Shown here: positions 4,529-45,600 of the stretch, piece after piece
Layout of the letters: every line of letters starts with the position of its first letter
How positions within the stretch are numbered: the stretch's first letter is position 1
DNA from: Parelaphostrongylus tenuis
Lineage: Eukaryota > Nematoda > Chromadorea > Rhabditida > Metastrongylidae
Reading direction: 5' to 3'
NCBI GenBank assembly: GCA_019055375.1
Contig: JAHQIW010000158.1
Span: 62,001-126,000 of the forward strand
DNA: 64,000 bases
The notes under the pieces: model-generated
Told to the model about the DNA's origin: nothing
What the model saw: the letters and a program-made list of their open reading frames with translations, nothing else
Databases searched by the model: none
Program-made: the position numbers and the translations under genes

Positions 4529-5598
4529 TATTCCTTGGTTTCCTGACGTAACCTTGAAAGGGCTTTTTGAGGTCTTCATGATGTTGTTTCCAAGGAATGA
4601 TTTTCGGCGATAGATCCTTGATCGGGTTTCCTACTTGTTGATTTGGAGATGATGTTAAGCCGAAATCAGTAGCAAAATTAGGAAAAAAAAATCAACTGAC
4701 CGCTCATGGACGATGTAAAAGTCGAAATAATAAGCGCACTAAGTCCGTAATTTAGTGGAATTTCCACATGCATAGGGAAGGCAAAGTGGGACGGCCGCAT
4801 TGCATCCAATGCACTTCTTTTCCACCGGTTTTTTACAGTGTGCAGCTGTTTTTTCTCTGTCTTGGTAACCTATGACTTGTTCTTCACTAATGTTGTGTAC
4901 AATGTAGATCGTGGAAAGCTGCTCTTTGCTTACTAATTTCCAAGAACATTCTCGCCGAATCCATCCTATTTGTGACGGAGACCGCCGCTTTTGAACAGAG
5001 TATATATCATAGAGAATGTTGTGTGTGAAATCACACAGTAGTGTCTTTGCTTGGACAACGTACTTCGGCACTCGAAAACATCTTTTCAGTCTAATTTGCT
5101 GATAATCATTGATATGCTCTTTAGCTCTTTAGAGTAACCCAGTACCCATCAAACAAGTGTCATATCAAAAGAGGTGTACTCTGATTGTCACTGGGAGCGC
5201 TTACAGTCTTATCTCAAAGCTACACTAGAAATTTCTAAACCAGGTACTAATCGCTGGATGCGATAACATTACATCTATTAAAAATTTCGTCTGAACGGAT
5301 GGTAGGGTTATTTGACACATCTGTTGGCCACCACGAGTCATTGCATAGGCCACATATGCATTCAATCACTTCATCATATAGAGGAATTGTATTCCTGATG
5401 AGAAATTTACATCATCTTCTTGTTCAAAAAGACATCCAACTTGAGCTCTACTACTGCTCAGACTATCTAGAAACCATCACTTTGAGGGAATGGGCACCTA
5501 GAAGAGTCATTCAAAAAGATATACTGTCGCAAGGATGCTGAATAAGTTGGATCATTATACAAAAAAAAATAAGAGACATATTTTGAGCCATAGGTCTA

Positions 5599-5646
5599 GT
5601 GCTATATAGGCGCCTATTTCGTCCTATTGGGACTCATCAGTAGCAC
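5599..5646 (-). ncRNA. Hammerhead ribozyme, family A copy 1
   Basis: Read on the minus strand, stem I is gtgcta paired with tagcac. The first core strand is CTGATGA. Stem II is gtcc/ggac with loop caata. The second core strand is GAA followed by stem III, a 4-bp helix atag/ctat closed by the tetraloop gcgc. The predicted cleavage site follows ATA. All invariant core bases are present. This is a type I layout with a very short stem III. Confidence 0.85.
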
Positions 5647-5880
5647 CCTCCCTCGGTTCCGTCAATCCCTTGAGGTGAAATAATCCTCTAAAGAAACCGA
5701 CGCCGAGTAAAATTAAACACCCAAAGTAGGATGATGGTATTACCTGACTTTGTGGTGACCGGCAGTCGAGCTTGCGGCTTTTAAAATGAACTATACTTCT
5801 GCTGTCGACTGCTTTTTTACAGACCCGCTCAAAATGATTTAATCTGATAAGGATATGACATATTTTGAGCCATAGGTCTA

Positions 5881-5928
5881 GTGCTATATAGGCGCCTATT
5901 TCGTCCTATTGGGACTCATCAGTAGCAC
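5881..5928 (-). ncRNA. Hammerhead ribozyme, family A copy 2
   Basis: This copy is identical to the one at 5599-5646 across the whole catalytic region, including stem II loop caata and stem III tetraloop gcgc. It lies 282 bp downstream in the same orientation, so the two form a tandem pair. Transcription through both would release a monomer of about 282 nt. Confidence 0.85.
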
Positions 5929-6428
5929 CCTCCCTCGGTTCCGTCGATCCCTTGAGGTGAAATAATCCCGCGTCCGTAAGAGAACCTGACGGGACCGCAG
6001 CGAGCTACGGCTTAAAATGCTAACCGCCGAGCACGACCCAAAAGTTATGATGGATGCTATTGAGCCGTCAGTTAGGCCTTTCGCTGGACCTCGTGCACCC
6101 CCTCGTTCCGTCGCTAGTGCTACCGACGCCGAGTAAAATTAAACACCCAAAGTAGGATGATGGTATTACCTGACTTTGTGGTGACCGGCAGTCGAGCTTA
6201 CGGCTGTCATAATATGTCATATCCTTATCAGATTAAATCATTTTGAGCGGGTCTGTAAAAAAGCAGTCGACAGCAGAAGTATAGTTCATTTTAAAAGCCG
6301 TAAGCTCGACTGCCGGTCACCACAAAGTCAGGTAATACCATCATCCTACTTTGGGTGTTTAATTTTACTCGGCGTCGGTTCTTTTAGAGGATTATTTCAC
6401 CTCAAGGGATCGACGGAACCGAGGGAGG

Positions 6429-6476
6429 GTGCTACTGATGAGTCCCAATAGGACGAAATAGGCGCCTATATAGCAC
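6429..6476 (+). ncRNA. Hammerhead ribozyme, family A copy 3 (inverted)
   Basis: It has the same 48-nt catalytic sequence as the two upstream copies but lies on the plus strand. Core CTGATGA and GAAA, stem I gtgcta/tagcac, stem II gtcc/ggac and the 4-bp stem III are all intact. Confidence 0.85.
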
Positions 6477-6539
6477 TAGACCTATGGCTCAAAATATGTC
6501 ATATCCTTATCAGATTAAAAAATAAGAGACATTAAATAT

Positions 6540-7550
6540 TCTCAATCAGTTAGTAAAATTAAAGCATTTGAAGAACCATGGTAGAAGTGGCTTGTGAGAT
6601 ACTCCATTAAAACCAAGGAACGAACTCGGCTCCCACCTCTCTTGCAAGGCTCTCCGGTAGTTGGCACTGGAACGCCTTAGTCCGGCTAATTCCGAGATTG
6701 TAGAGAGAATCGACTTGGCCAATATTCTTACACTTTTGAAAAATCGAATCCTCAAACAGAAATAGAAGCAGCACGCGAGATCTTTTGAGACCTTTGCGGA
6801 GCATGGAAGCGAAGAAGAGAATTCAATGCAAGGAGTGAGCAGATTCTTAAAACGAATGTGAGGATGAGTTTATTTAAAGCTTATAACACATATCTATCTT
6901 TTTCAGAACTTTTTTCATGCTGTCTACTGCCTTGGCATCCAACAGTTGAGAAGATTTTTGGTTTCACGCTTTGTATAACTATAAATCTTGAGGGTATTTT
7001 TCTTCTTGACAAGTGTCGCTGAATGCCAGTGGTATCGATTCTTGATGTATCTTGGCATAACTTTCCCACAATCTCTAGGGCTTTTTAAAGATCTTATCAT
7101 AGCCATTGACTGGCTTTTGTGAACGGGACTGAGCTTTCTCAGAGATTTCAAGTAGAAAATTGCGGCACAGAGGAATGTGAGATCGGAGCATCCGGTCCAA
7201 AGTCTCAGCGACTGCAATGTGTACATTGTTGCGTAACAATTGCATCATGACTTGCTACATTAGTTTACAATCTTTGAAAGGTTTAGCTACGGAAGTACGA
7301 TATTCGCAGTGCCGATACTTGCGTGCCTCGTGTAACAGCACTAAGAAGATGTATATAAAGTACTGCATTGCATTGAACATGCGAAAATAGTCAATTTTAG
7401 TAGATTCCATCGTTGTGGAGAAAATAATCGACAGAAATCGTCGGCCTTCGCACCGGATCGTATACGGGAGAGACAACAGGTTTGTTTATGGTCCTGACAG
7501 TGTCACATCGTAAGTGCATGTACTGCGCTGAATCTCTAACAACTACGTTT
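6540..7550. other. No gene recognised
   Basis: Only short minus-strand frames occur here, without splice sites that join them or any recognisable domain. The region is unremarkable AT-rich intergenic DNA. Confidence 0.4.
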
Positions 7551-7555
7551 CAGTC

Positions 7556-7603
<48 letters not shown>
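7556..7603. repeat. (AT)n microsatellite
   Basis: About 48 bases of alternating TA, with one tt interruption near 7579. Confidence 0.95.
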
Positions 7604-7604
7604 A

Positions 7605-7900
7605 AGGATAAAGCTCTCGGCGTTGATCAATCCCTGAAGGATGCGCCATGCATTCGACTTAAATTTTTTAACTTCGTTTGAAGTGATTGAATGCACATCT
7701 GGCCTCTACAATGACGCGCGGTGGCCTCCCGCTAAACCGAGTCAGTGCTGATCCTCTCAGACAAGTCTAAGACCTGTCTGGTACCAACTTACCGATCCCG
7801 GAGGGATGGATGGCTTGGTGAGCCATGAGCGCAAGATCGAACCAGTGACCTCGTGTGCGACGCAGGGCACCTCTAACCACTGCGCCACATGCGCATAAAT
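7605..7900 (-). mobile_element. tRNA-derived SINE, family S2
   Basis: On the minus strand the element starts with a tRNA-like head. The A box region reads tggcgcagtggttagaggtgc and the B box reads ggttcgatctt. A body containing 'gccatccatccctccgg' follows, ending near 'gatcaacgccgagagctttatcc'. Copies lie at 12785-12945 (plus) and 19745-20040 (minus), with a stub at 55618-55690. Confidence 0.65.
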
Positions 7901-7929
7901 ATATATTTATTTATTTATTCATTCAAACA

Positions 7930-9010
7930 CTCGTATTCGTTTTTCAATTGCGCATGTGGTTAACATGTTCTATATAAATGTAATGCAGCAAAGACGAACA
8001 ATGTTCCGATGAATCTGCTCGCACCTCGGGACAAGTCCTTGTTTCCTCTTTACTACGTTTTCCTACGCTGTATACTCGCTTGGCCATCTCGTGAAAGGTT
8101 ACGGGTGATTGGATAGAATAAAAATTCTTAAATATTTGAAAGCTGTTTGTCATAATGCCGCAGGATTGCTATAAGAACGGCGCTAATTGAAATGTATGGG
8201 CTGCAGTTCTGTACCCTACTATCCTATATTACGTGATACTTTTGCATTTGAAGTTCATTGGAAACGAATTTCATTCAATGCATAATACTTAATACATTAG
8301 TAGCTTGTCTAGGCCGCGTGTATGTGTTGGAGTCAATGTTGTTTTCATTATATTTCTGTCTTGCTTCCAAAAGAACAAAACAAATAAAATCTCGTATGCG
8401 CGAATTCAAACGTGTGTATAGATAGTTTGGTGTATGTCAAATTGATGCAGCAAAGACGAACAGTTGCCCAGATGAAATTACTCACATCTTACCACAAAAG
8501 CATATTTCCATAGATCCACGTTGTTTAATCGATTGGTCACATTGTGGGTGAAGCGGATAACCGGTTACTGTAAAATACTTTTGGATTTGAGAGAAGTTTG
8601 TCTCTCCGTAACAGGGTTGCTATGAGAACGGTAATTTGAAGGCCATGGATTGTAGTTCGGTGCTCAACTATCTGCGCTATTTCTTGAGTTATAGCTCATT
8701 TATACTTATGAGAATTGAACGGTGAACAAAAACACGACCTCAGACGAGAGTTGAACCCGCGTTTCATCCATGCCAGGGACGGTGAATGTAACTCGGTGGT
8801 GCAGTGGTAGTATGCATCTCCGTTATGGATGAAATGCGGAATGAACTCTCGTCTGAGGTCGCATTTTTGTTCACCACTCAATCTCTTAAATATATATGAA
8901 ATAACATAACATTGCGAAAGAAGCAGTAAAAATACGTAAAAATGCTAGAAATTTGGAGTTATAGTTCATTGCCAGCAAACTTTGTTCAATGCATAATGCT
9001 TGATATTTAT
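7930..9010. repeat. Dispersed repeat R2, two tandem-like copies
   Basis: Two diverged copies (about 7930-8390 and 8400-9010) share 'gcagcaaagacgaacaatgttccgatgaa', 'gctatgagaacgg..aatttgaaggc' and 'tgtagttcggt' blocks in order. A third copy is at 17390-17790. The second copy is interrupted by the insertion at 8701-8955. No coding potential is shared. Confidence 0.5.
8701..8955. mobile_element. tRNA-hairpin insertion with 15-bp target duplication
   Basis: The flanks are gagttatagctcatt (8686-8700) and gagttatagttcatt (8956-8970), a 14/15 match, and the surrounding R2 repeat is continuous once the insert is removed. Inside are arms of about 65 bp (about 8705-8769 and 8817-8885) that pair as a long near-perfect hairpin. 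Each arm contains part of a tRNA-like T-arm (gggttcaactctcg in the left arm, read on the minus strand). The loop holds an A-box-like 'tggtgcagtggtagtatgc' at 8803-8821. No ORF. Confidence 0.65.
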
Positions 9011-10250
9011 GTGGTCTGCCCTGGCGGTGTACATATCCAAAACAGTGTCATTTTTGAAAACATTGCTATTTGGTCGTAAAAATCCAAAATGCCAAACTCC
9101 TCAATTGCTCAGAGCTCCTTAATCCACTTCTTTAATCCTGATACTCCTTAACTTCTCAAGATTTCTTCGTTCATTCACCTTCTTATTTCCAAGTGCTATT
9201 GGAAAGCGGCCAAACTACTACTCAGCATTAATGAGCGAGTGAATTGCCTTTTAACTGATTTGCCATTACGAAGTTGTCGTACGCGAAAGAGTTTATGTTT
9301 TCTCGAGTTCCATATTCTTTCGCTGGTCTTACTTATGAGCGCGTGTCAACATAAAAGAGAGTTTCGTATGTTCAGTATTTCCCTGAAAAAACGCCACCAT
9401 CTAATTCCATCGTTGCATCTGAAGATGTCAAATTTCCTATTTGAGCAATAGAATGGCTAGAGAAGGTCAGCTAATCCATTAGGTCTGTTTGCTTCCTGCC
9501 ACATTGATGTAGCATCCACAGAGGAGTGGAAGGTTTGCGTAATCTGATTCGCAAAGGAAACACCAACACGTGTGTATTGTTACGCCAAACTTCCAACCAC
9601 TATGTGAGCACTTTGAACTTTCAAATCTGATGCATAGCAAATTTCCATTACGTGGATCACCTGAACCACGAAATTGTCGACTCACTTCATCGAATAGCAA
9701 GATTTTTACTTTCTCTAATCGCGTTCGCGAGTGGCCTAGGGTTCCTCCTCACATTGGGGATCAGATAAGCATATATCTTTCTTCTAGATTCTTCGTAAAT
9801 AAAGCAGCCATCGGATCGGAGGCTTTCCTTCTGCGCGTTTGACGTCTCGGGGAATTCCGTCGGTAGTAACTTCCGTTTATTAGTTGTCGTGTAAATTAAG
9901 TATGCTACCCACGCTCTTACTCTTCAAAAGCCTGTGTGCAGATTGGCTTCTCTGATTTTTTTTTCGTTGACGTATGCTCCAGAACTTCGAATTCTTTTCT
10001 CTTAGCGTAATACGAGACTCTCCTGGAACTTTTCAGATTTTCGTGGAATTACTTTTTCACTAAACTTTCTAGCAGCTTATAAGCATCGAAAGATGAATAT
10101 AAGAAGAACCTTATTAGTATGCCGTCACATCGCCGGATTTTCATTGATTGTGAACGCAAACTTAGAATGGGATCGAGTATAATCGGTACCTCTGCACAAA
10201 TACAATGCAAAATTTTATCCTTCATCTTCATTGCTCTTTTTAGGTGTTCT
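9010..10250. other. No gene recognised
   Basis: Short frames occur on both strands but none shows a domain, a signal peptide or matching splice sites. Confidence 0.4.
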
Positions 10251-11559
10251 CATTGAATGTGACAAATTTTTGGTGTGGAAGGTTACTCATTTGTCGGTAA
10301 TCCATCCCTTCTCTCCTAGGCTACAATAATGATTATGCATGGGATTCGCCTCGTGAAATATCGCACAAACTTGCACGTTGAGCTTGTGTTCTTCTCGTAC
10401 ACCCTTTGATGAGTTTCCTCTAAGTTTTCGACTTAAGTAGATATATTTGAGTGCTCAAATAGATTTTGCTTGCAGGGGATGCCTGCAAATGATAGCTTAT
10501 CTACAGATGAGAACATGTCACCACAAATCCATTATTTGCTCATTTTCAGTGTTGCGTACTACTTTTTGTCGATTCTGCTTTTTTTTCCAAATCCATAGCA
10601 AGTCAATACATAGGTTTTATTTTCCAGATTCTGTACACAAACAGTGGATTTCGCAAACTCTGAACATTTCGTCCTATGTTTTATATTGGAACTCTCGAGT
10701 GTGTTTCATTGATCTGTGATACATATAGTGTAATTGTCACTATATAGCCAAATTATAAACGCTCATTCTCCATATCTTGATCGGGTATCAAATTTTATCG
10801 TTTGATATTTGACACTTTGGTGGAATGTGGTGTTTGAAAAGATTCACAGAAATCAAACATTTTTGATAAAACTGGTATGATGCTGATTTGGATATCGTTC
10901 TTCCTTTGGGTCCCTGGAAACCTCCGCACGACGTCACCAGGGCATAATTAGATGCAGTTGCTAGTGATGTGGATCGAAGTGCAGATTGCATCTTTCGACT
11001 TCCTTAAAGTTTTTCGCTAGTGGAGGACCTGCCAATGGTTTTCAGCACCTGGCAATTTCGACCATGTCCCACAAGTCTTCGCTGTTTCATCGTACTTGGA
11101 AAAGTATTCTCAGTGACAAAGGTGGTTCTTGTTAATGCTAATTCAAAATATCTCAATTCATGGGCCCCATTTCAAACGCAATATAGATGCTCCTTTTCCC
11201 CTCATCATTCATTTTGGCTTTATATCGCCTAATGATAATCTGCAAGATGGCTCGTTCTCAGCCAGAATTTCCACTAGCAATGAAGGTGGGGGACATATTA
11301 TAAGGAAAAGAAGGACTGTCCTGCTCTTTCCCATTGGTGTTTCGGAAAGAAATTTTTGAGCGTGTAGTTTCTGAATTTTTCTGGTAAGAAGGTTAGGGCG
11401 TTTTAGTCATTGCTTAAGCAGGACGACGAAAAATCCAAGGCATCCCAGTAACTCATTATGTGCAGAATTGCTTATTAATATAAAAAAGAACTCAGTGTAA
11501 GCACTGTAATTACTACATTTTTCGAATTATCTAGAGATTCTAATAAACCTAATAGTTAT

Positions 11560-12945: not shown

Positions 12946-13044
12946 AGTCAGTGTAACGGCTACATATGCTTTCAGTCGCCTTAAACAAGGTTAAAAACTG
13001 TAGAAGAATGCATGTCGCATCTTTCAGGAATTTTCTAGAGCCGC

Positions 13045-26800: not shown

Positions 26801-29800
26801 TCCTGCTTTCTCACATTGATCTGTATCATGTGGAGTAGCGTAGTGATTGGACTATCTGCCACTTTTCTTCTAGCATACGACGTTTGTCAATTGTGTTTCA
26901 ATTTTTCTTTCAGCTAAAAGACTTACTAAGGAATGAAGACGGTGAGTGATTGAAAAAAATACTGTGAGACTTTTTGCTAAGATTATGAACGTATTTGTAT
27001 GAGTAATTTGCGGGTCGAATAGATCAATCGAATTTCTGGAAGGCAAAACTGTTGAAACGTCGCGCACCATTGTGTGAGTAAAGCCTGCTGTCAACAACTT
27101 CTTACCAGTTTACTCCGAGATAAATAAGAAGGGTTCTCCAAAAACACGAACTTTTAATCCGTTTTTCCAACTTTGTCACCTATTAATAATTGTTTAGGGT
27201 AATGACAAGCAAGACAGTAGGGAAATAAAAATGTTCACGTCAAAATGTTTAAGATGGGTGTGGTCGTACACGAGTGGAGAAGGCTCCCATATTCTCTCGC
27301 AGTTTGTATTCATAGCCACAATGCCATTTATTATATTCACCTTTTTCAACTACTTAGCGATTGCCGCAACTATATTCAGGGTTTGTTTGATTATACGTGA
27401 TATGACACCTATTTGTTTTTCCCATAATATTCAATGATTCCGAGTGCGGAGAGGTTAATGGCTAGAGGTGCTATTAAATAACGCTCAGCGCCACGGGCTC
27501 AGTCTCGCACCTGACTAATGTATTCTTCAATCATAATGAAGTCGGTACTCAGAACTTGCCTAGGAAGGGCTCTGTCACTCAAGTCTGAAGGTCTTTAAAG
27601 ATGAGAGATTTCAAGAGAGCTAACCGAATGAATAACAGATTCAAGAGAACGATGAATACATCAGAGAGCCAATCGAATGAATAAAGTACAGGAAGCCGCA
27701 AGAAATATGTCGTCGGTTCTGAACGAATAAATATTAAGAAATCATAATGATGAGTCAAAATTATTATCAGACCTTCACTGCACGTTTTTAATTTCGGCAT
27801 GCGCCAATGACACTGAGGATTGTTCATAAGAAGTACAGTGAGTCAAGAGGATAGGAGTGCAAGTAAATTTGAAGAGAATACATTCCTAAAAAGCAGTAAT
27901 GTGACCGCTAGACAAATATGACGGATGCTGTGTGATTGCAAGTAACGCATTCTACTTATTTAATTCGCCCTAATATGACTGTGACCACGAGATTAAGGGA
28001 GAACGAATTAAACAGAACAGTAAGTGCGGCAATGGTATTTTTGGAACTCGGAAAATTTTACGATCACTAGACAGATTAGACACTACTTAGAATGGCCGTT
28101 TGATTCGTTATGCAGCTAAGCACTAGTGTATGGCTGAACCACATTGAGATATCCACTAGCAGTGAGTAAAACGTCAAAAAATTACATATGAAGTACGCAA
28201 TATCGCCAACGTGTACAGTTCAGACCTCCAAAAAAGTCGCTTCTATCCCATATTCACTGAAAGTGTAGCAAGGATGACAAGTGATATGCGCATAAACAAG
28301 AACTGATGGATGCTAATAAGGTTCAAGAGTTGTCCAGAGTAACCACCAAAAACGCTTCGAGAAAGGCATAAGGTAAACTATTCATCTAAAAAAGGGTATT
28401 TAAATGGTCCGGAAATTAGATTGTAGCGATAACACTACATAAGATCTGAGAAATGGAGCCTAAATTGGGGATCAGATTAATACGCAATGACGGGATTAAG
28501 AGTATGATGAGAATCAAGCTCCCGGATGATACACATGAAGTGCGAGGAGCAGTCTTATGAGATTACATGCGTAATACGTAATAAGCAACAACTAGTCATG
28601 AGGGTGACAAGAGCTAATGGAGTGATGCGATGTGTGGGTGCAATGTCGGATACAACAGAATCAAATGCAACCTTAACTGGGGATTACGCTAAGCTGATTG
28701 AGTAGTATTCGCCATTCGAGGTGGCCTCATCGGAAATGGAGTAAGTTGCAGTCTTTTGGATGAGTGGGAACATGTCGATGCGATTAAAGCTAACACGGTG
28801 CTTAAGAAATGGAGTGGTATAGCAGTAGATTATATTTAGACTACTTACTGAAGACGCTTAGCTTGATTTTAGTTCAGACGTATCAATATAGAGGCGAGCA
28901 GACAAGATAAATTAAGAAGACAAGCACTGAGACCGGATGTCTGGCGACTTTAAAGAGACATTAATGAGGAATCGAAGCACAGACCGAGAAAGAGCACGAC
29001 AAGATTACTGACGATATCAAAAAGATCGACTGTTTTTGAAACCCCAAAAAACATTCAATAATCCAAAAAAAAGAATGATTTAAGCTCAAAAAGGGTGGTA
29101 GCCCAGGGTCATACACCGGTGTTTCGGAGGTTCGGCCTCCTTCATCAGTGACCCCCGCCCACATTCAGCCCTGCACTTGAAGCAAGGAGGGTGGCGTATG
29201 TGGTGATGGCACAGTGTACTATGACCTGTACCATCACCACCTCTCAGTGATAGGATTTTGCTGTTAGATCAAAACTATATCAAAACGATCGATGTTTTGA
29301 AAACCCCCAAAAACTTCAATCCTTGCTTTCAATGAAGGGCTGAATGTGGGGCGGGGGTCACTGATGAGGAGGACGAACCTCCGAAAACACCGGTGTATAC
29401 CCTGGCGCTAAAAACCCTTTTTTTGAGCTTAATCCATTCTTTTTTTGGAAGTATATTGAATGTTTTTGGGGGTTTCAAAAACAGTCGATCTTTGATATAG
29501 TTTTGATCTAACAGCAAAAATCTATCGGACTGAGAGGTGGTGATGGTACCAGTGTCATAGTACACTGTGCCATCAACACATACGCCACCCTCCGTGCTTC
29601 AAGCAGGGTGAATGTGGGGCCGGGGGTCACTGATGAGGAGGACGAACCTCGAAACACCGTGTATGACTGGCTTACCAACCCCCTTTTTGAGCTTAAATCA
29701 TTCTTTTTTTGGAATTATATTGATGTTTTTGGGGGGTTTCAAAACAGTCGATCTCTTTGATATAGTTTTGATATAACAGCAAAAATCTATCGCCCCCTGA

Positions 29801-32800
29801 GAGGTGGTGAGGGTTACAGTGTCCATAGTACACTGTGCACATCACCCCACATACGCACCTCCTTGCTTCAATGCAGGGCTGGAATGTGGGGCGGGGGGTC
29901 ACTGGATGAGGAGGACGAACCTCCGAAACACCGGTGTAGAACCCTGGGCTTACCAAACCCCTTTTTGAGCTTAAATCATTTCTTTTTTTTGGATTAGATT
30001 ACTGACCTTTGTAAGGAGAGGGTATCTAGGGCAAAAGACCTTTCGGATGATGATGATTGGAAGGGTGCTTGAGCATACATGAGGGTAAGAAGGTTGACAG
30101 CGACCTGAGATGCATGAGCGCGTTATTGGAATGTTTTAGAGATTGTACATACTCTCAAACGGATAAGAGGAGCCTACTCAATTAATTGAACGGTTAAGCT
30201 TATACAAGAAGGCAAGCAATAGGGTTTGGACGTAGGCTACCACGAAGCAATTTGAGGCGAATAAAGTGTCATCAGAGGCGCGCCCTTTGACATTCGCTCG
30301 CAAGTTTTTTCTGTCCGTCCTTTGTCTAAAAACCGTTCGAAATGCCAGCTGCAAGCCAAAAGCTATCCGTCCGCCGGCCCAACTCTCTAACCGACGCGAT
30401 GACTCATTGCCTGACATTTTTAATTATGTACAATTAGAATATTTCATCATATCTTTCCCTTCGAGTGTTTTCTTAAGCCACAGCTCAAATTTCAGCATGC
30501 CTGGTAATCATTTTATACCCCACGCATGTCAGTGATCTCTTTGAGAAGGCTGACTTATGGAGCCCGATACATGTGTTTCGATCTTGCGACCTCGTCAGTC
30601 GGGCAGTTACCCTTTCTCGTCTTTTGCCAATCCTGCGCGGGTGCTCCACTCCCCACACTAAGAGTTAGCGACGACGAACGTGTTACATTCTATGTCCAGT
30701 GAAATTATCACCGAACACAGAGCGTTGTACACTCGAGTGTTCTTGGCTAATATACATAATATGATTATAAATATTAAGAAAACTTGAAAATATGATGATA
30801 AATGGTTCAAAAAATGATTACCAGGCATACTGAGATTCGAGCTGTGGTCTTAAGAAAACACTCGAAGCGAAAGATATGATATATTGAATATACTAGCCAC
30901 GAGCAATCGAGTGCACAACACTCTGAGTTTGGTGATAATTTCATTGGACATAGAGCGTAAGACGTTCGTCGTCGCTAACTCTTAGTGTGGGGCTGGAGCA
31001 CCCACACAGGATTGGAAAAAGACGAGAAAGGGTAACTGCCCGACTGACGAGATTGCAAGATCGAAATGCGTGTATCGAGCTCTATGAGCAGCCCTCTTTA
31101 ATAGACCATTGACATGCGGGCTCAAAAAATGACTGCCAGGCATTAAAATATTAATTAGTTAACGATATTCACATGTTTCAGCGTAAGCGAGAAGCAGGTA
31201 GATAGCTGTTGTTACTGCTGTTGTAGAAGGTTTTTGTTGTTAAGATAAATTTTTTCCAAACCGCATCCGGAGGCGATTGTCATTTCACTGAGCAGAATAA
31301 AAAAGCTCCAATCCTCCTTTCATTTTTTTCAGATGAAACAAGGATTCAATACTATTCAAAAGGTCGAACTTCGTTTGATTATTCATGCCGCAATTTTATT
31401 TCTGGTGTTGACTAGCTTGATTGCTTTCTGGCATTATTACAAAACCTTCTTCCCCGATTCGATATGGACGATATTTGCGATAAATCTTTACTATATGCTG
31501 TATTGCGGTTTGAATCCGCTTTTATACTTAGTGTGCTCGAGGTGAGTTGGTCGTCATAGATTGGCTTGTGGCGATATTTTCTGTACTGTAACAATTAGAA
31601 GATTTTATACAAAAGAGAGCAATTGCGGAAATTATTTTTCCCTCACAGAATTTTTCTCAAATGTACATGGTTATTTGAGTTTGATTCCTAACTTTCTAAG
31701 CTCTCGAACAAAGTGTAAACAACACTTTGGAATCTGTATAATGAAATGATATATTGCGATTATATCAAATTCCTAACAGTTTTGCGAACCATCTTTCCAC
31801 TGTACCCCTATCGACAATAACGGTATTTTTTGGTTATAAAGGAACAAATGAATTTCGACCTCATCCGCTGCACAAGAATTTTTTCATGGGAGTGTTGGTA
31901 TTCACTCGAAAGCTTAAATGTCTAGCTAGAGCTATACTTAGTCGGTTTCAAAAACAACCTTTCATAGCGTGTAACATCTAAAATAAAGTTAGGTTTCATA
32001 CCCCTTCATTTTTATCACGCGTATAATTCGGTGAAAGCACGAAAAACAAATGAAGATGTTAAGAAAATCCCGTAGTATCTGAGTCAATCATTTGATATGG
32101 ACTTTGAAAGTGGAGAATAAATTCCGAATTAAATAACAAGTTGCACCCCACATGTTTAACCCGCCCGGTCATCGATCGGTCGCTCCGCCCCCTCCTTTCC
32201 CCATCCATAGTTGGCCGGTAATATAGCGTCGAATATGTGAAATTCGATCGTTTTTTTCTTTGCTGCACTGCAGAGAAACTGTTTTTTCCAGAAAATATGC
32301 ATAGTGACGAAAAACTTGCATATTACGCTATTGAACGGTTACTAATTGTCTACAGAAAAAGCTCTGTCCGGCGAGGTGCAAACGAAATCATTTCTTTTTT
32401 CCAAAGCTCTTCGAAAGGAACTTCCCCAAAAAGCGAACACATGTTTGAGCTCCTCGAGACTTGTGCTAAAAAGGGTATCAGCAATCTAAGGAAGGCTTTT
32501 TGTCCAGCGAAATATAAGCGAGATAATGATATAACATGTTACGGTCTGTTAGGTTTAGTGCTATACAGGCACCTGTTTCGCTCTATTGGAACTCATCAAT
32601 AGCACCCTCCCTCTGTTCAGCCGATCCCCTGAGGTAAAATGATCCTCTATAAAGAAATCGATGCCGAGTAGTAAATCAGTTCAAGTCAGATGATAGAGTT
32701 ATCTGACATTGTGGTGACCGGCAGTCAAGGATTATTTCTAATATCTAATGAATTAATCAATTATCTAATTAGCTATTTATTTAATAATTTATTTATTTAT

Positions 32801-33572
32801 TTTATTAATCAGCATTATTTAACCTCAGGGATCAGCTAAACCGAAGACGTGTGCTACTGATGAGTCCCAACACGACGAAACAGGTAGCTGTATAGCACTA
32901 GACCTAATAGCTCAAAACTTACCAGATTATATCATTTTGAGCGGGTCTATATAAAGCGCTCGATAAAAGAGGTATAAGCGAGATAAGAACAAAAACGCAT
33001 GCTCGTGTGAGACGTGATTTTGGATTTTGCAGTGTCACATAGAAGTGTTTTGAAGAACTTTTGAAGCAAGGCTGTAGCCAGAGAGTTAAGCTTTCAAATG
33101 ACTACTAATACCTCTATGAAAAGTTCTTTCACTGCGATTGAGGCTCAACATTCATTTGTTCCATTATAACCAAATATTTCCGCAACAAAAAATGCTGCAT
33201 GTGAAACGGCTACCAATCTCGCACCAGCTTAACAAGAGCGGTTCTTATGATTTACATGCATCAAAATAATATTTGGCAGAATCAGTAGTATTTAAAAAAG
33301 ATGAAGAACTCTTTTCGGGAATCTTTGCCACTGCTTTTTTATATTTCTAACTTTGTCGGCAGAATGAATGCTTGTGCTTTTCCTATAAAAAGCATTTCTA
33401 AGTTTCGCTTCCTCCATTGTATCATTGCAGAATCAATGAGCCAACTATGACTATTTTGAAATATGTGTACTTCAGGAACATCCGTCGGACTTTTCTTCAG
33501 TTCATCCGCGTGGTGTCTCCAGAAAAGACTATCACCATTGTGACTATAGTCGCCAAGAAATCAGTGTACTGA
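20739..33572 (+). CDS. Serpentine 7TM chemoreceptor (seven exons)
   Basis: The exons 20739-20843, 20971-21126, 21501-21629, 24182-24267, 27218-27380, 31333-31541 and 33476-33572 join in phase to 945 nt, or 314 residues. This length is typical of nematode chemoreceptors. Likely segments are TM1 (~12-33), TM2 (~47-70), TM3 in exon 3 followed by a basic loop, TM4 in exon 4, TM5 in exon 5, and TM6 and TM7 in exon 6 with NPLLYL at ~274. A basic tail follows (NIRRTF). It should sit in sensory-neuron cilia and bind an unknown ligand. Exon 2 looks most like the Srt family (FELMFYVGILD), but TM7 does not, so the family is left open (Srt, Srx or Srv superfamily). No stop or frameshift is visible. The introns contain SINE, RTE and three ribozyme elements. 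An alternative last exon is 31599-31749; I prefer 33476-33572 because the tail reads as a GPCR C-terminus. Confidence 0.75.
20971..21126 (+). CDS. Chemoreceptor exon 2 (TM2)
   Basis: The exon follows the acceptor TTCCAG and ends at a weak GTTTGG donor; the pseudogene copy has GTATCA at the same point. 52 codons, phase 0 at both ends. It contains FELMFYVGILDCIQLIA and a loop with LPYLNP. Confidence 0.75.
21501..21629 (+). CDS. Chemoreceptor exon 3 (TM3 and basic loop)
   Basis: The exon lies between acceptor TTTTTAG and donor GTGAGT. 43 codons, phase 0 at both ends. TM3 ends in SLYRLLIIRKR, a position comparable to the DRY region of other receptors. The pseudogene equivalent keeps the frame except for one stop. 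Confidence 0.75.
22490..23160. repeat. Dispersed repeat R1, copy 2
   Basis: It shares 'gcttaaattcctgactactg', 'gtttcacacacatatttctcgcaggacag' and 'tcgatcgatcg' phrases with copies at 38700-39500 and 560-1480. It lies in intron 3 of the chemoreceptor gene. 21640-22490 before it holds no recognised feature. Confidence 0.45.
24182..24267 (+). CDS. Chemoreceptor exon 4 (TM4)
   Basis: 86 nt between acceptor TTTTAG and donor GTAAAA, starting in phase 0 and leaving two bases. It reads GILLTVACCFALWICQM, then YDPN in the second outer loop. It is separated from exon 3 by about 2.5 kb that contains an R1 repeat copy. Confidence 0.7.
24485..24690 (-). mobile_element. SINE S1 copy
   Basis: The minus-strand head reads gcgcggccgagtggttgtgatgg, a tRNA-like A box with the 'GGCCGAGTGG' of Leu/Ser-type tRNAs. 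'ccccccctaaactctctcc', 'gtcaacaac' and 'ctatcctcgagactgcaagg' follow, all shared with the plus-strand copies at 56622 and 61770. Confidence 0.65.
25015..25890 (-). mobile_element. RTE fragment (RT active site to C-terminus)
   Basis: The minus strand carries FTDDIVLI (about 25770-25795) after a DDLELKIDGRPLNHLY block, and continues to the C-terminal ITRCREK-type end near 25050. It matches the 2130-3545 fragment in the same order. Several frameshifts are present. It lies in intron 4 of the chemoreceptor gene, which the pseudogene copy shows was originally only about 100 bp long. Confidence 0.75.
26330..26870 (-). mobile_element. Second RTE-like family fragment
   Basis: The minus strand has GLRISRMKTQIMK, CVGKKCGLD and NEYGEQRDG blocks, which correspond to the GLRINRKKTQFMKN..VYLGRSMNM region seen at 58960-59735. 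It continues in broken frames to a FCVIQQRRGLKHQPP-like tail. It is a different subfamily from the 25015 fragment just upstream. Confidence 0.6.
27218..27380 (+). CDS. Chemoreceptor exon 5 (outer loop, TM5)
   Basis: I placed the start after ACAG so that one base completes the split codon from exon 4. The pseudogene has AG followed by the same T at this point. 163 nt, ending at a GTTTGT donor shared with the pseudogene. It contains WVWSYTSGEGSH and the TM5 run FVFIATMPFIIFTFFNYLAI. Confidence 0.65.
27450..29012. other. Purine-rich intron stretch without ORFs
   Basis: This intron stretch has a tRNA-like A-box phrase 'agaggttaatggctagaggtgc' at about 27450. After it there is no frame longer than about 80 codons, and the plus strand is noticeably A/G-rich to 29012. 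The same texture resumes at 30007-30180, so the ribozyme element at 29013 was inserted into it. Confidence 0.4.
29106..29154 (-). ncRNA. Hammerhead ribozyme, family B copy 1
   Basis: On the minus strand, stem I is gggtca/tgaccc, core strand 1 is CTGATGA, and stem II is ggagg/cctcc with one extra A before it compared with its siblings. Core strand 2 is GAAA. Stem III is aca/tgt closed by ccgg, and cleavage is predicted after GTA. It is nearly intact; the extra A may weaken it. Confidence 0.7.
29355..29402 (+). ncRNA. Hammerhead ribozyme, family B copy 2
   Basis: Core CTGATGA, stem II ggagg/cctcc with loop acgaa, and GAAA plus one extra A. Stem III is aca/tgt with loop ccgg. The 3' strand of stem I reads taccc instead of tgaccc, one base short. 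Confidence 0.7.
29624..29668 (+). ncRNA. Hammerhead ribozyme, family B copy 3
   Basis: The core CTGATGA and GAAA are intact. Stem II lacks one C and stem III lacks one G relative to its siblings. It lies 269 bp from copy 2 in the same orientation. Confidence 0.65.
29896..29944 (+). ncRNA. Hammerhead ribozyme, family B copy 4
   Basis: Stem II, GAAA and stem III are perfect, but the first core strand reads CTGGATGA with an inserted G, and stem I ends agaaccc. It is 272 bp from copy 3. Confidence 0.6.
30562..30604 (-). ncRNA. Hammerhead ribozyme, family C copy 1
   Basis: On the minus strand, stem I is gcccga/tcgggc, six perfect pairs. Core strand 1 is CTGACGA; position 7 is variable in hammerheads. 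Stem II is ggtc/gatc with a GNRA loop gcaa, and core strand 2 is GAAA. Stem III is aca/tgt and cleavage is predicted after GTA. All invariant core bases are present. Confidence 0.8.
31038..31080 (+). ncRNA. Hammerhead ribozyme, family C copy 2
   Basis: Core CTGACGA and GAAA are intact, and stem II is gatt/gatc with loop gcaa. Stem I has one C/A mismatch (gcccga with tcgagc), and stem III is mostly wobble pairs. It is on the sense strand of the chemoreceptor pre-mRNA. Confidence 0.7.
31333..31541 (+). CDS. Chemoreceptor exon 6 (TM6, TM7)
   Basis: Acceptor TTTTTTCAG, donor GTGAGT, 209 nt. It contains TM6 (LIIHAAILFLVLTSLIAFW), a loop, and TM7 ending NPLLYLVCSR, an NPxxY-like motif. The pseudogene exon is 205 nt because of one missing codon and one missing base. 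Confidence 0.85.
32558..32605 (-). ncRNA. Hammerhead ribozyme, family A copy 4 (core mutated)
   Basis: Stems I, II (gttc/gagc, kept by compensating changes) and III (acag/ctgt) are present, but the first core base C3 is T, giving TTGATGA. It is probably inactive. Confidence 0.65.
32851..32898 (+). ncRNA. Hammerhead ribozyme, family A copy 5
   Basis: Stem I gtgcta/tagcac, core CTGATGA, stem II gtc/gac (3 bp), GAAA, and stem III acag/ctgt with tetraloop gtag. Cleavage is predicted after GTA. The stem III sequence differs from the 5.6-kb element but still pairs (atag/ctat becomes acag/ctgt), a compensatory pair of changes. Confidence 0.8.
33476..33572 (+). CDS. Chemoreceptor exon 7 (C-terminal tail)
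   Basis: After the acceptor TACTTCAG, one base completes the AGG codon begun in exon 6. The tail then reads NIRRTFLQFIRVVSPEKT and stops at TGA 33570-33572. A basic tail directly after TM7 is usual for this superfamily. The 1.9-kb intron before it contains an R1 repeat and a hammerhead element. Confidence 0.7.
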
Positions 33573-38250: not shown

Positions 38251-38259
38251 GAATAGTCG

Positions 38260-38330: not shown

Positions 38331-38699
38331 AATCAGTTTGAATATCAGACTGGCCGTGAATTCTTCCTATCGACTCTTTTCAAGTCACGCTATATGAACA
38401 TTCAATTCAATACATTCGATAAGGTTTGTGAGATGTTTACAGCTTTTTCAGCCGGTACGTCAGTGACTTGCGCATGTGAAGGTGATATCGCCCGCTTCAT
38501 CAGAGCAACACGTCTCATACACGTTTTCCCTATCCCTGATATAAAGTAGGATCAGTATGAAGTGTGTGGCTTTGACGAAGCGGGTAATACCACCGGAACG
38601 TACCTACCCTTCTCACGTACATCCTCCAATTACTCTCATAGATTCTATTACATATTTATACCGAGGTCTTAAAAAGAGTCATTAGTAAAAAATGAATGT

Positions 38700-39850: not shown

Positions 39851-40019
39851 TCGGAGATTCTCAGGCTATCGAATAACTACAAAACTATGAGTGAAATACG
39901 AAAAAATGCTTGATAACAGTTGAAAATATGTTTTTTCTCAGTCGAATGTAATTTCTTGTTGAAAGAGAGATTTTCGATATATGTGCGTTCTATAAGTTAA
40001 AATTATCCCTGTAGAGTCT

Positions 40020-40450
40020 TTCTGTAGTGGCGTTACTGAACGCTCAGTCGAAAGGTCAATGCTAGGATTATCCCGTATCTCGCAAATGAGCGGAAGAATC
40101 CAAAGTTCCACCTACGTCATCGATCGAAGACCAGAGACGGCGTTCTACACGCCAAGATATCGAAAATAAGGTGGGCCGAACACGTGATGCGCTTCAACGA
40201 CAACCGACGGACGAGAGCCGTTACCGACTGGATTCCTCGAAACGGCAAGCGCTTTAAAGGAACACCACTGACCCGTTGGTCCGATTTCTTCACGAAAGCG
40301 ACAGAAGAAAGATATGATTCTTAGCGAATCCCTGGAGCGAGGAGGACCCACTGGGCTACTCTCGTACGCGATAGGGAAAAATGGAAGTGTTGCTGGTATC
40401 CACTCGAGTCACTCGACGATCATCGGGCGACAGGTGACAGGTGACAGAGT
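40020..40450 (+). mobile_element. RTE fragment, C-terminal end, plus strand
   Basis: The plus strand encodes the RTE tail in two frames: a tail with a basic stretch and DRR-PLVRF-like end, then SESLERGGPTGLLSYAIG and a STRVTRRSSGDR terminus. It is very close at the base level to the minus-strand 2130 fragment. Confidence 0.75.
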
Positions 40451-40999
40451 CTTCTTTGAAACCTTTCAAATATCATTCTATCCTCTAATGAAAACAACCT
40501 CTCTTCGTAACGTCAATTTGCCAGATAAATTCCTATAATCCCTTTGCATCGCGTGCACTGATCCAGCGTAACAAAGCGTGCGTGATGTCTAACCCACGCA
40601 GTCCCAATAAGTTAGCTCTTGGAGGACCATGCCCACCATTTGGTACAATCATTTCGTGATTTCCTCGGGGAGCACCCCTTTTTCATTGAACTTTCAGTAC
40701 CCGTTGAATAGCTGAGAACACTGAATTATAACACCGAGTTTGGCTTTGAAAAGACTTCCTGAGGCGTCGTAGCATCAAAGAGAAATTTACATTTTGCTTT
40801 CGAGGTGTACATTGTATTTTGTACGCGTGTTTCCTTGGCTTCTTCGCTAGTCAGAGTTTTTTGAGCAGATTTAACAGTCATTTGCTAATTGAAATGGCGA
40901 TTATGGTAGTGAGCTTAGTTTCTGAAAAGCTTTTATTCCGCTGTAACACTGGGAAAAAAAATTACGTTCACGATATCCTCGGTGCTCTTAGACTCTCCA

Positions 41000-42430
41000 A
41001 GCCTTTCGCTTTCTGCTGCTCAATACTGAAGCTAGGTCGTTCGTTTTAGCGATTTCCAATTTAGATAAATGCAGGCAGAACTCATTTCATTGAGCATGAA
41101 GGGACATTTAACATCAATCCGTTTGTTGTGAACATCGTTTTCGTGAGATTCAACCGGAAACCAATCATTCCACAAGCCTTGTTGAAATCGGTCCCCATTC
41201 GCTCTGCTTGGAAAATATTAGTGTAGTAAGAACGATAACACAAGCAGAGCAAAAATTGTGCATTTGTCGACCTTGTAATCACTTTCATGATATCCCACTC
41301 CAACGTTTGCACACCGTTCCGCAGGGCGATAATGAATAGAATCGTTAGAAAGGGATCGCTTTAACTAACGCCTCTTTTTAGGTCGATGGTAGCACCACCA
41401 AATTGGTGATTATTGTTATGTTATCCTCATATAGTTCAGAGAGTTTTGCTTTTATTCTGAATAGAAACATCTTGATTTCTCATAACTCTCATAGTTAATT
41501 CTGCTTTGTTGAGTCAAAGCTTTACTTCACTCAGCAGAAATGGGACGGTATTTTCTCAGAACTTATGCTTCTGTAATACCTATATGCATTATATTACCTT
41601 GTGGTTATAGACCAGAATACAAAGTCCTCTTCAAAGTGCTGGCTACTTAGATGTAGTCTTCTGTTCTGTCACTCCTGTTGATGGTGACTCGGGGAAAGAG
41701 TTTGTAAGTGACAAACAGCTAGAAGATTGGACGAGTCCTATTGCCGTATATATTCGGTGCCGCAGAGGTCCCCTTTCGAACAATAACACGGAGCTGTTGG
41801 TCTTTCTACATCGCGATGGACAGTCTGAAAAGATCCGTGGCTGCGTCTAGATGAGGTCAGGCCGAAAATTCTTCACGTGCTTAGATCTTATCCTGCCTGG
41901 TTCACTGTTATTCAATTTTTTCCTGGCGAGATAGTACCTTAGATTCTGGAAGAAAAACCGGTGACACAACATCTACATTTTACTTGATTTCATATAAGGT
42001 GTTGAAGGACGTGGTTACTTGAGTAATCCGAGTAGTGTTCGTAGGCGATTTTTCCATTTCTTTCCTAGAAGCACTAACTGCTTTTCCTACACATCGAAGT
42101 GCACTCATTTTGGTTTTGTAGATGGCGAAGCCTTGATGGGCTTAGCAAACCTTCTTCAAGGCCTCTACAGCTTCCTCTACAACTGACTATTCTCTTCAAT
42201 ACTTTTTCAAAATCATTTTTGCGTTTTCACAAGCTCTGAACCGAGTTGTCGATATCCTGTGACGCGCGCGAGTCTGCTCTTATGCATCAACATGAGTTTT
42301 TCTAGGAAGAGGCAAATCTTGGTGGTCTTCAAGCTCACAGCTTTATAGAGTGCCACTGTAAAGTTGTTGAATTAGGCGGTAACCGGTAGAAGATCAATCT
42401 TTGAAGGCGAATCATAGAGCGGCCAATATT
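41000..42430 (-). mobile_element. RTE fragment with internal losses
   Basis: Minus-strand blocks occur in correct order from 42430 downward. They are FAIYKTKMSALR with SASRKEMEKSP (about 42000-42150), a CSKGDLC..NLLAV..LQT block matching the KKGD..NYRPI finger region (about 41650-41800), and AERMGTDFNKACGMIGFRLN with LTKTMF (about 41100-41210). The YADD active site is damaged. Many stops are present. Confidence 0.7.
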
Positions 42431-42514
42431 TGTTTTTTTTTCATCGTAAAGGTAACTATATTTTACTGAGTTAAAAAACAAAAGTCTCTACTGCACTCTT
42501 ACTGGTAGACTTAC

Positions 42515-42623
42515 CAAGAAAAATCGGCACTTCAATTACGAAGTCTAGTAAACCAAAAAGCACTAGTTTTACAAAGACATCTCCTAGTTCCGTGACATAT
42601 TCAAGAACTCCAGGACCGACTAT
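42515..42623 (-). CDS. Candidate last ZP exon, cut by a ribozyme element
   Basis: An open frame reads VLEYVTELGDVFVKL and LFGLLDFVIEVPIFL up to a GTAAGT donor. It resembles the 'F.F.d...V.IECPI.LC' end of ZP domains, but the cysteine positions are V and G or beyond. Its upstream continuation (LSEEILERD) lies across the ribozyme insertion, at about 43090-43125. The phase with exon 43224-43360 does not match, so this is tentative. Confidence 0.35.
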
Positions 42624-45600
42624 CTATTAACCTCGGCATAGTTTCATAGCATGAGTATCTTCTTCTGTTTAGCCGCTCCGAGGTGTTATTGATATTATTT
42701 ATTGAATATCAGCGAAGCATATAACAATACAGTTAGTAATGCAGCATGAATATTACAGCAGTCGTGGTGGCTTACGTTTCGGCACGGTTCGCCATCTTCA
42801 GAGCCGCTTAGATGTTTTAGGTCTTTCAGTTGAACACTGAAGACCTGCCACTTGGAGTCTCTGCTAAAGTGAGACTGACAGTCCAAGTAGCAGGTCCTCA
42901 ATGTTTAATTGAAAGACCTAAAACATCTAAGCGGCTTTGAAGATGGCGAACCTTGCCGAAACGTAAGCCACCACGACTGTTGTTATATTCATGCTGCATT
43001 ATTAACTGTATTGTTATATGCTTCGCTGATATTCAATAAATAATATCTATAACACCTCGGAGCGGCTGAACATAAGAAGATACTCATATATTCAAGAACA
43101 TCACGTTCAAGGATTTCTTCCGAAAGCTATGATTAAATTCACCGTTTCTTTTGAAGATTAAGTAATTAGAAGCATAATTGGAGTACCCTATTACGATTTC
43201 TAGTAAATCCACCTGCCGCTTACCCGTTCTCAACTAGGGTGATATTCTCACGACCGTCAGTACTGAACGCAACACATTTCGCCAATGTATAATTGATGTC
43301 GTTGATGTGGTCGTCGTCGATTTTCAGATCAAAATTTTGACCCAAAGTAACCGCATTCCGCTAAATCAGGCATAACTGTTTAGGAAAATATTATTAAAAG
43401 ATTTAGTATATCCATTTAATTTCAAAACTTCACTAATCATAATTTTCCTCTTGTTATATGGGACCTCTATTTTGTATCTAACAATGAGTCTCAGGATAAA
43501 ATCAGTCTATGAAAAAAGCAAGGATTTGTTTTTTATTTACTCTAAAGTATTGTTTCCTTCTGCAAGAATGCAGACTTCTGAGTTCCTAGACATCACAGTC
43601 TTTAATTGTTGTGAAATACTCGGCAAAAAAAAATACTACCTCGTGTTTTCGTTTTGTTCGCATTTCCATTCTCAAACTAGGATACGAGATATCTCCTAAC
43701 GGCCGTAATATTGTGTGATTCGTATTTCTGAACCATATCTCATTACAAGAGACAAATTCGTGGTTTATTCATTAACTTACCCAACTTGTAAAGCTGTGGT
43801 TACAGATATGTTAGCAGTATGGTTAGTGTAATCACATGAAATACGATAAAGTTGGTCGTGTTCTGTTATTACGGCCGTTTCCGTGAGAGTGTTTCGTTTG
43901 AAGACAATTACATTTTGATAGACGTATTCTTTCTGAAAACGATTTTCAGGTCTTCTGATCTTACACGGCTATTATGGTAAATAAACTAAAACAACGCATT
44001 TCCACATCATTAGCGAAAAAATATCGTTACAGTTCGCTTTCCGCTAATCATTTTCACATCTTTGGAAAAACCTTTCGTTTTCTCAGAGCTTCAGTAATGA
44101 TTTGGTAGCTTAAATTTCAGCAGTTTTGATGTTCCACTTCATTTCCAAAACGACTTTTTATTGCACTGTATCAACGAAAATAAATTATGTTTCACATTCG
44201 CCGCGTTTCTCACTGGACAAAGCTTTTTTTGAACATTTAGTAATATTTGATAGCTTAGATTTCGACAAATCTGACACTTTGCTTTTCTCAAAAAGACCTT
44301 TCTGTTAGGTGGTAGCAGCTAAAATAATGTTTCGTCCCCTGTGAGTAGTTTTTGCTCGGTTACGGTATGTGAATGCCCTCGAGGATGAAATTTCGCAACA
44401 TTTGCAATTAAAGGCACCGAGGTGACCAGTGTTTATCGATGGTCATTCGATAGCATAAACCAGATGGTTCCAAAGCTCAGTGCGATTTTCAGGAAGTTTT
44501 CATAAAGCACAGTAGTACCGTTTTGCCTTCGTGTCTTATGTGTACCTAAAAAAGTACTTGTCTGGCTTTCCAATTTCTCATCTAAACGTTCTTTTATGAG
44601 GATAGAAAGTGGGCTGCTCGTTGTGCTTTTATATTCATCACCACATCTCGTACAAGCGGTTAAGCATGCTATTCTAAACTCACGCAGCCTCTCTCTCTAC
44701 CTTTGCAACAAATAACGTAGTCCTCTTTCTTGCACAGACGACCATGCAAGCGGTCTTAACCCGGTGGAGGCGGTATTCCTATGATCTTCTAGCGTTTCCC
44801 AGACCACTGTTTCATGTACACCCTTTATTAGCAGCCCTTGTTTGTCATGATGGGTGATTTTAATGGTCTCTGATTTAGCACATCAATGCCCTCGTCGTGA
44901 GGCCCAGCCCTTTTTGACGTGCCATCAGTGGCTATTCTTTCGCAATCGTTTAAGCAGACTATGTATTTTTCCAGGGCTAACTCACTAGTAGTCAATTACT
45001 CTATTGTCGATGTTGCATGAGTTGTCAGAGCATATGGAATTCACGCGGAAAATTGGCTGATATCAATCAGCATTCAAGTACACTTTCCTAAGCTACTATA
45101 CGAAATAATAACAAAGCCTAGGCAATACAATTATGCGCCATACACTGAGCAGCTACATATGTTTGCATAGAGGAGAAGAGAGAAAGGAGTCACTACAACT
45201 GGCGCGACAAATAGCCATCAAATGGACTACGGAATAGCAGCTACTGAGGTCTGGTCCAAAAGGTCGTAGGAGTACCACATCATTTTATAAAAGAACATCA
45301 ATCACAATGCAGACTATTGTTGTTAAAATAACTTCATTCTGGTCAAATCGACAACTTGTCCAAAATCTTCTTGATATCCTTAGATCTTAAATCTGAAAGG
45401 CTCAAAAGTGATCAGTTTTTCTTAAAAATCGTTTTGGAAATAGTATGCTGAACTATTAGACTCCATTCCTAGAGCAGTGTGGCTTTCGCTCACTGCCCAA
45501 GCTTTTTTCATCAAAAAGGGCGACATGCCAGCATAAAAAGGTTTCAATATTGTGCAAACCACTACAAAGCCACTACTATTTCAGTAATCCACAAGAAAAT

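Follow-up and report, generated by a model that had tools for sequence, protein, structure and literature searches.

How does one stretch of a nematode genome come to hold 13 hammerhead ribozyme motifs in five elements built on a single plan, and what moves such elements? The stretch, hereafter the window, is the 64,000 nucleotides from position 62,001 to 126,000 of contig JAHQIW010000158.1 in the Parelaphostrongylus tenuis assembly GCA_019055375.1, and its elements, E1 to E5, fall into families A (E1 and E2), B (E3), C (E4) and D (E5). A first-pass annotation, made from the letters alone, had described about 13 hammerheads in five elements and had proposed that these are non-autonomous retroelements that may share one trans-acting reverse transcriptase (RT). 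We find that the shared architecture is one insertion anatomy, made up of units that point outward, two kinds of outer end (alpha and beta) at a characteristic spacing, target duplications and scattered inner junctions, and that the Penelope-like elements (PLEs) of the same genome have it too. We consider it likely that the A, B and C retrozymes and family D, a derivative of the PLE pseudo-long terminal repeat (pLTR), are moved by these PLEs.

The accessible sections of Cervera and de la Pena (2020, PMC7229834) define the metazoan non-long terminal repeat retrozymes and name PLEs as candidate movers. A 2020 review (PMC7761336), in the sections accessible, likewise regards PLEs as the likely movers, but describes repeats without a conserved motif that would point to the machinery and treats the mobility of animal retrozymes as an open question. 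To that question the four families and the local PLEs described here bring a common layout, end rule, spacing and duplication length.

Units diverge from a central junction

The 481.5-Mb assembly, in 5105 contigs, was searched with the retrozyme families, 40 candidates being scored per family, and the window proved not to hold the only copies: there are at least 188 matches to family A, at least 297 to family B and at least 51 to family C. Family A consists of tandem arrays of a 282-bp unit (GC 43.3%) and family B of arrays of a 270–271-bp unit (GC 43.9%), one family B contig (C1459) carrying 13 units on the minus strand and, after them, 15 on the plus strand; for family C a single tandem spacing of 312 bp was seen among the matches listed, and none in the eight loci fetched. 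Long family A matches are mostly 94–98% identical among those listed, and genomic copies of A, B and C have intact type I hammerheads, as judged by sequence and fold. In older family A copies (L001–L008 and E2) the stem III pairing, read by eye, is kept by double changes, from TAGGCGCCTA to CAGGCGCCTG and CAGGTACCTG.

For family A we took the 40 best-scored of 1645 candidates, a choice biased toward young, query-like copies, and the 39 loci fetched, together with E1, gave 41 measured elements. Three were dropped because they had no duplication (L060, L061, L075), three because they had a 7-bp repeat only (L045a, L059, L076) and two because an internal repeat had been mistaken for a duplication (L069, L074), leaving 33; removal of L052–L054, whose duplication is the same as that of L051, left 30 independent insertions, 25 with two blocks of units and five with one. 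Near L044, at a distance of 98 nt, lies a further block in the reverse direction, which was taken for a neighbouring insertion and not counted. Among family B contigs, C3012, whose plus units lie 47 kb to the left of its minus units, was counted as two insertions, as was the family C contig C2681, with plus and minus matches 159 kb apart; the family C contigs C1172 and C1174 probably hold one insertion.

In all 42 retrozyme loci counted with both orientations, the minus units lie on the left and the plus units on the right, so that they point outward from a central junction. This holds for 25/25 independent two-block family A insertions that carry a duplication of 10 bp or longer and, among the matches listed, for the 8/8 family B and 9/9 family C contigs with both orientations close together. 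The PLEs, whose 3' ends are marked by GIY-YIG matches, behave alike: among 150 scored matches in the genome, 20 of 22 neighbouring pairs no more than 5 kb apart are divergent, two are tandem and none is convergent.

Two outer ends and a target duplication

The outer ends were fixed by the position of the target duplications. In family A one end lies at unit position 14–33 (alpha) and the other at 68–79 (beta), on sides that vary from insertion to insertion, and the stretch between them would correspond to the "tail" of PLEs. One alpha end and one beta end were found in 23 of the 25 two-block insertions, where about half would be expected if the ends were independent (p = 9e-6). The longer block is on the beta side in 16 of these 23 (p = 0.10), a bias that we do not claim. 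The five one-block insertions (L047, L048, L063, L068 and L072) all have a duplication; four of them show an alpha end and one a beta end, and thus either start site can act alone.

The same rule holds in 5/5 family B insertions with a duplication (L119, L120, L122, L124 and E3; of six loci fetched, four have end duplications, and L121 and L123, in which the outermost ends could not be placed firmly, gave no duplication). It holds also in 7/7 family C insertions with readable ends, L099–L104 and E4; the ends are supported by a duplication in L100, L101, L104 and E4, and were placed by eye, where similarity stops, in L099, L102 and L103 (of the eight loci fetched, L105 was left out for its unclear right end and L106 repeats L100). 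It holds in E2 and E5 as well. Alpha and beta lie about 50 nt apart, with medians of 51 in family A (n=23) and 49 in the PLE group PLE1 (n=10), and with values of 44–66 in B (n=5), 32–57 in C (n=4), 43 in E2 and 41 in E5. The widest spacing, 66 nt, is that of L124, where the short end stops early, and the narrowest, 32 nt, that of L100, where the tail is shorter than in other copies.

Family A duplications measure 10–17 bp with a median of 12 bp, close to the 12–13 bp of PLE duplications. No endonuclease consensus emerged, A/T richness being the only consensus feature of the family A target sites.

These ends bear on two other accounts. A miniature inverted-repeat transposable element (MITE), that is, a DNA transposon with inverted repeats and target duplications, would account for the inverted arms, which reach 294 bp, and for the duplications that flank them. 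We give it next to no credence: the duplication length is not fixed, at 10–17 bp, the two ends are not identical and differ by about 50 nt of sequence, and each arm is built of tandem copies of a repeat of 282 or 270 bp, broken off at scattered inner positions. Arrays of satellite DNA that were rearranged once inserted, or artefacts of assembly, would agree with the presence of near-identical duplicate loci and with long arrays that may have expanded later; L051–L054, on three contigs, hold one insertion and one duplication common to four loci, L051 in reverse orientation, and either stem from a segmental duplication or represent one locus assembled from different haplotypes. We regard this account as very improbable, given the divergent arrangement of every counted locus in three families and the exact duplications that stand directly outside the ends in 26 of the 30 independent family A insertions.

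Penelope-like elements of the same genome

The first-pass annotation had suggested looking for a Penelope-like RT with a GIY-YIG domain, and one is present. Locus L078 is a head-to-head pair of PLE copies, of which the minus copy is 5'-truncated and has a frame of 635 codons and the plus copy has an open, stop-to-stop frame of 893 codons that matches RVT_1 (E 1e-11) and GIY-YIG (E 2.4e-7). The closest relative of its protein is unnamed and 73% identical, and the nearest named relatives, from Necator, Ancylostoma, Haemonchus and Nippostrongylus, are 48–59% identical at a coverage of at least 80%. These named relatives are nematodes, mostly strongylids, and by this evidence the host is probably a strongylid nematode as well. 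The PLE pLTR has a minimal hammerhead in which stem III is all but missing, like that of family D, and minimal hammerheads occur in 9/12 further PLE 3' ends. Such minimal hammerheads of PLEs reportedly cleave as dimers, and resemble those of family D and of the PLEs here in their very short stem III.

Ten of the 20 divergent PLE pairs were fetched, and nine fell into one group (PLE1-type). Judged by the ends of the matches, the alpha/beta rule is followed by L078 and by 9/9 of these pairs, of which seven have an exact duplication of 12–13 bp no farther than about 10 nt from either match end; the exceptions are L085/86, without a duplication, and L095/96, whose 10-bp repeat lies 19 nt away from one of the ends. 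The tenth pair (L097/98) belongs to another family and has a 12-bp duplication. A pair from a second PLE family shows the longer end on the left and the shorter on the right.

Families A, B, C and D thus insert as a PLE does, head-to-head, with a tail at one end and with a target duplication, a likeness that bears on mechanism and not on membership. The match to PLEs in layout, end rule, spacing and duplication length also gives good support to the proposed set of non-autonomous ribozyme elements served by a common RT, and from this common anatomy we infer that the PLE enzyme would act in trans on the retrozymes, most strongly so for family B. The RT of a long interspersed nuclear element (LINE) might instead have made the insertions by twin priming, which inverts the 5' part of an insertion and leaves a ragged inner junction. 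Inversion and ragged inner junctions are seen here too, and yet the ends read have no poly(A) tail and are placed at constant internal positions, inverted insertions are the norm, and it is the PLEs of this genome that match the retrozymes in ends, spacing and duplication length; on this comparison, which drew on the PLEs and included no search for LINE families, we think twin priming quite unlikely.

Inner junctions and the probable joining of two complementary DNAs

At the 25 family A junctions the inner ends of the two blocks are unrelated in position, with circular distances of 19–129 nt that do not depart from uniformity (Kolmogorov–Smirnov p 0.58). The gap between them is −9 to +11 nt in 23 cases and consists of 36 and 210 unmatched nt in the other two; altogether 12 junctions overlap, one abuts and 12 have extra bases. 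Such junctions look like the joining of two separate complementary DNAs (cDNAs) and not like a fold-back.

The fold-back alternative is self-priming, proposed for rotifer Penelope in the accessible sections of PMC3846280, in which the second copy is primed by the cDNA itself, or by an antisense template, after folding back. A head-to-head outcome, with palindromes at the junction, is described there. In 15 of 21 family A insertions, moreover, the distance between the two blocks is below the median for other insertions, which is what copying from a single template would produce. Self-priming would not lead one to expect inner ends unrelated in position and never less than 19 nt apart, nor two outer ends that both lie at specific start sites adjoining the duplication. 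In L044 the divergence between the two blocks is 3.75%, and 20 of the 21 other right blocks are closer to its left block than that; the two copies of L078 begin about 0.9 kb apart in the element. We consider self-priming unlikely.

The templates can be judged from the differences between units. Units within a block differ by a mean of 2.1 edits (54 pairs from ten loci), against 7.2 between insertions (514 pairs), as expected if one RNA circle or a homogeneous multimer were copied round, and later expansion of the array would give the same pattern. The left and right blocks of one insertion differ by a mean of 1.67% (21 insertions), and blocks of different insertions by 2.47% (p = 7e-4). Since the two blocks are no closer than the median of others in six of the 21, two RNA molecules may have served as templates for the two strands in some insertions.

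The tail stretch

Tails were compared in 15 pairs among A, B, C, D and two PLE modules, PLE1 and PLE2, each against 1000 shuffles. Over 26 aligned columns just before beta, B resembles PLE2 more closely than any shuffle (0/1000 as good), and no shuffle was as good either for D with PLE1, for D with PLE2 or for PLE1 with PLE2; the tail of E5 is plainly a PLE tail. Weaker likeness links B with PLE1 (15/1000 as good), A with B (6/1000) and A with C (4/1000). A hexamer, A[GC]TCG[AG], lies 7–15 nt before beta in 6/6 modules, although it was chosen post hoc, after the data had been seen. In PLEs this stretch encodes the start of the protein (MPR...), whereas in the retrozymes nothing is coded there, so that in the latter it would reflect an RNA signal. 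We suggest the shared tail motif as a candidate link between retrozymes and PLEs, clear only for family B.

Two further ideas were set aside. Direct homology of the A and C tails to those of PLEs was rejected on the shuffles, as was a hairpin around alpha as a common structure, in which B, D, PLE1 and PLE2 fail.

The five elements of the window

The first-pass count stands at exactly 13 motifs, and its description of opposite orientations holds in 5/5 elements. Four elements have exact duplications of 11–16 bp, as it had stated, and the fifth, E4, has one with a mismatch. It was also right that none of the elements carries an open reading frame: the longest stop-free stretches are 54–100 codons, and no frame with RT and GIY-YIG was found when looked for in E1–E5. 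That there are four families held up, and that they are unrelated did not, since E1 and E2 are one family, E5 is PLE-derived and some of the families have a common 3' stretch.

The core stays constant while the stems vary among families: GTGCTA/TAGCAC with GTCC/GGAC in A, GGGTCA/TGACCC with GGAGG/CCTCC in B, and GCCCGA/TCGGGC with GATC/GATC in C. An intact CTGANGA core is present in ten motifs, and the remaining three (at 29902+, 32599- and 42937+) are altered. A strict three-stem descriptor passes six of the 13 and nothing else in the window, and seven pass with a relaxed core; dinucleotide-shuffled windows gave means of 0.01 strict passes (n=100) and 0.07 passes with the relaxed core (n=30). 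A chance origin of the motifs, which the first-pass annotation had proposed to check in this way, is rejected on these shuffles. The motifs that fail the strict descriptor look like decayed copies, intact B and C forms being present elsewhere in the genome. At the curated threshold an Rfam scan of the window found no hammerhead, and Hammerhead_1 had 31 matches genome-wide, 20 of them above the cut-off.

E1 (5580..6516), a family A insertion with minus-strand units on the left and a plus-strand unit on the right, lies between 16-bp duplications (5564..5579 and 6517..6532). Its hammerheads at 5598..5647 (-), 5880..5929 (-) and 6428..6477 (+), with cores at 5640-, 5922- and 6435+, all pass the strict descriptor. 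Within it, 153 nt (5969–6121) are unlike the family A unit and are perhaps a captured stretch or an older variant. E2 (32527..32972), an older family A insertion, has 14-bp duplications (32513..32526 and 32973..32986), a remnant at 32557..32606 (-) whose TTGATGA core (32599-) passes when the core is relaxed, and a hammerhead at 32851..32898 (+; core 32857+) that passes strictly.

E3 (29013..29995), of family B, has 11-bp duplications (29002..29012 and 29996..30006), one minus motif and three plus motifs. That at 29106..29154 (-; core 29148-) has a one-base insert near stem II and that at 29355..29402 (+; core 29361+) a damaged stem I, and both fail the strict descriptor; the one at 29625..29668 (+; core 29630+) passes, and the remnant at 29896..29943 (+) has a one-base insert in its core (29902+). 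E4 (30444..31141), of family C, has a minus unit on the left, a plus unit on the right and 11-bp duplications with one mismatch (30433..30443 and 31142..31152); its hammerhead at 30562..30604 (-; core 30598-) passes strictly, and that at 31038..31080 (+; core 31044+) fails through a stem I mismatch. Because E1–E4 have no frame with RT and GIY-YIG, they are not classed as PLEs, and we assign A, B and C to the metazoan-type retrozymes.

E5 (42609..43087), of family D, is assigned to the PLE-derived remnants, as a head-to-head, pLTR-like derivative of a PLE between 12-bp duplications (42597..42608 and 43088..43099). It has a minimal, PLE-type hammerhead at 42770..42805 (-; core 42801-), which fails the strict descriptor, and a remnant at 42932..42970 (+) with a TTGAAGA core at 42937. 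The window also holds a decayed fragment of a PLE C-terminal (GIY-YIG) region at 44514..44755 (-), matched in tblastn by the L078 protein in two pieces of 36% and 44% identity, and a PLE pLTR fragment at 56024..56112 (-), 78% identical to L078.

As to the rest of the window, a stretch at 49280–49400 (+) bears GTGCTACTGATGA, GGCTCAAAACAGTCGAT and GGTCTAGCACTAGA and resembles a scrambled family A remnant, yet blast with a cut-off of E 1e-4 did not align it with the unit. The only Rfam match is a transfer RNA gene at 3194–3265 (+; 53.1 bits). A Pfam scan of ten window frames gave no match above the curated cut-off, and a frame at 49609–50040 (-) weakly matches the mariner-type transposase PF01359 (E 0.0068, under the cut-off).

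Discussion

The insertions suggest the following course of events. Tandem copies would be transcribed and the RNA cut by the hammerhead, the cut RNA probably being circularised by a host ligase. A PLE enzyme, probably a dimer, would cut the two strands of an A/T-rich site with a stagger of about 12 bp, and the 3' end of each target strand would then prime cDNA synthesis inside the RNA, one strand starting at alpha and the other at beta, about 50 nt downstream. Copying of a circle or multimer would place tandem units on either side, and end joining of the two cDNAs, sometimes made from different RNA molecules, would leave units that diverge from a central junction. More specifically, and with confidence only somewhat better than even, we propose that animal retrozymes and PLEs have one common cis-acting initiation module (alpha, a tail that holds an AGTCGR-type motif, and beta), and that integration normally needs one cDNA per start site and one per target strand, sometimes from two RNAs, joined end to end.

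Several observations weigh against this interpretation. The alpha/beta rule is broken in two of the 25 family A insertions, L071 and the window's own E1, and five of the 30 independent insertions have one block. The overlaps at 12 of the 25 junctions may be microhomology or alignment overrun. Inner ends show no excess at the hammerhead cut site in family A (5/50, against 3.7 expected), and ribozyme cleavage has therefore left no mark in the DNA. The tails of A and C are no closer to those of D, PLE1 and PLE2 than shuffles are, and a hairpin around alpha beats shuffles in A (21/1000 as good) and C (48/1000) only. Finally, the Poseidon element PAc of Anolis, in vitro, shows no difference in start site between the strands, whereas here there is mostly one of each, so that the one-each rule is not predicted by PAc; nor is the PAc ribozyme needed for insertion in vitro (PMC11167929).

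PAc is at the same time the closest parallel on other counts. In vitro it cuts and extends both strands, and its RT begins internally, at either of two sites between which the tail lies, as proposed here; its pLTR also bears a hammerhead (PMC11167929). The PLEs of PMC3846280, in the sections accessible, have inverted pLTRs, most commonly head-to-head, an arrangement explained there by self-priming, with an optional tail of 31 bp on one pLTR and duplications of 8–10 bp in the cases described. Our insertions share the head-to-head arrangement and differ in that A–C are non-coding, the tail is one-sided in nearly all two-block insertions and the inner ends are not mirror-symmetric. With metazoan retrozymes, as the accessible sections of the literature describe them, ours share type I hammerheads, tandem units of 270–282 bp (A and B), a GC content below 50%, the absence of a frame, duplications longer than 4 bp and co-existence with PLEs; unlike those described, they form head-to-head insertions of two blocks that end at two sites and carry a PLE-like tail, shared in part. 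In the accessible text of PMC7229834 the words inverted, head-to-head, opposite orientation and nematode are absent, and in that of PMC7761336 "inverted" occurs in the reference list only and "nematod" not at all. A search of titles and the beginnings of abstracts, which covered few subscription journals and did not query retrozyme together with inversion, found no retrozymes in nematodes and no head-to-head retrozymes. New here are the link of retrozymes to the two-site anatomy of PLEs and the use, by most insertions, of one site per strand.

For PLE integration, where self-priming and a two-strand model coexist, 25 duplication-delimited insertions fit two primed strands followed by the joining of cDNAs. 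The shared anatomy, together with the tail sequence common to family B and PLE2, makes the question of retrozyme mobility testable with one purified protein and one RNA. If our interpretation is true, retrozymes would be parasites of PLE double initiation, and their insertions would record the PLE mechanism in vivo.

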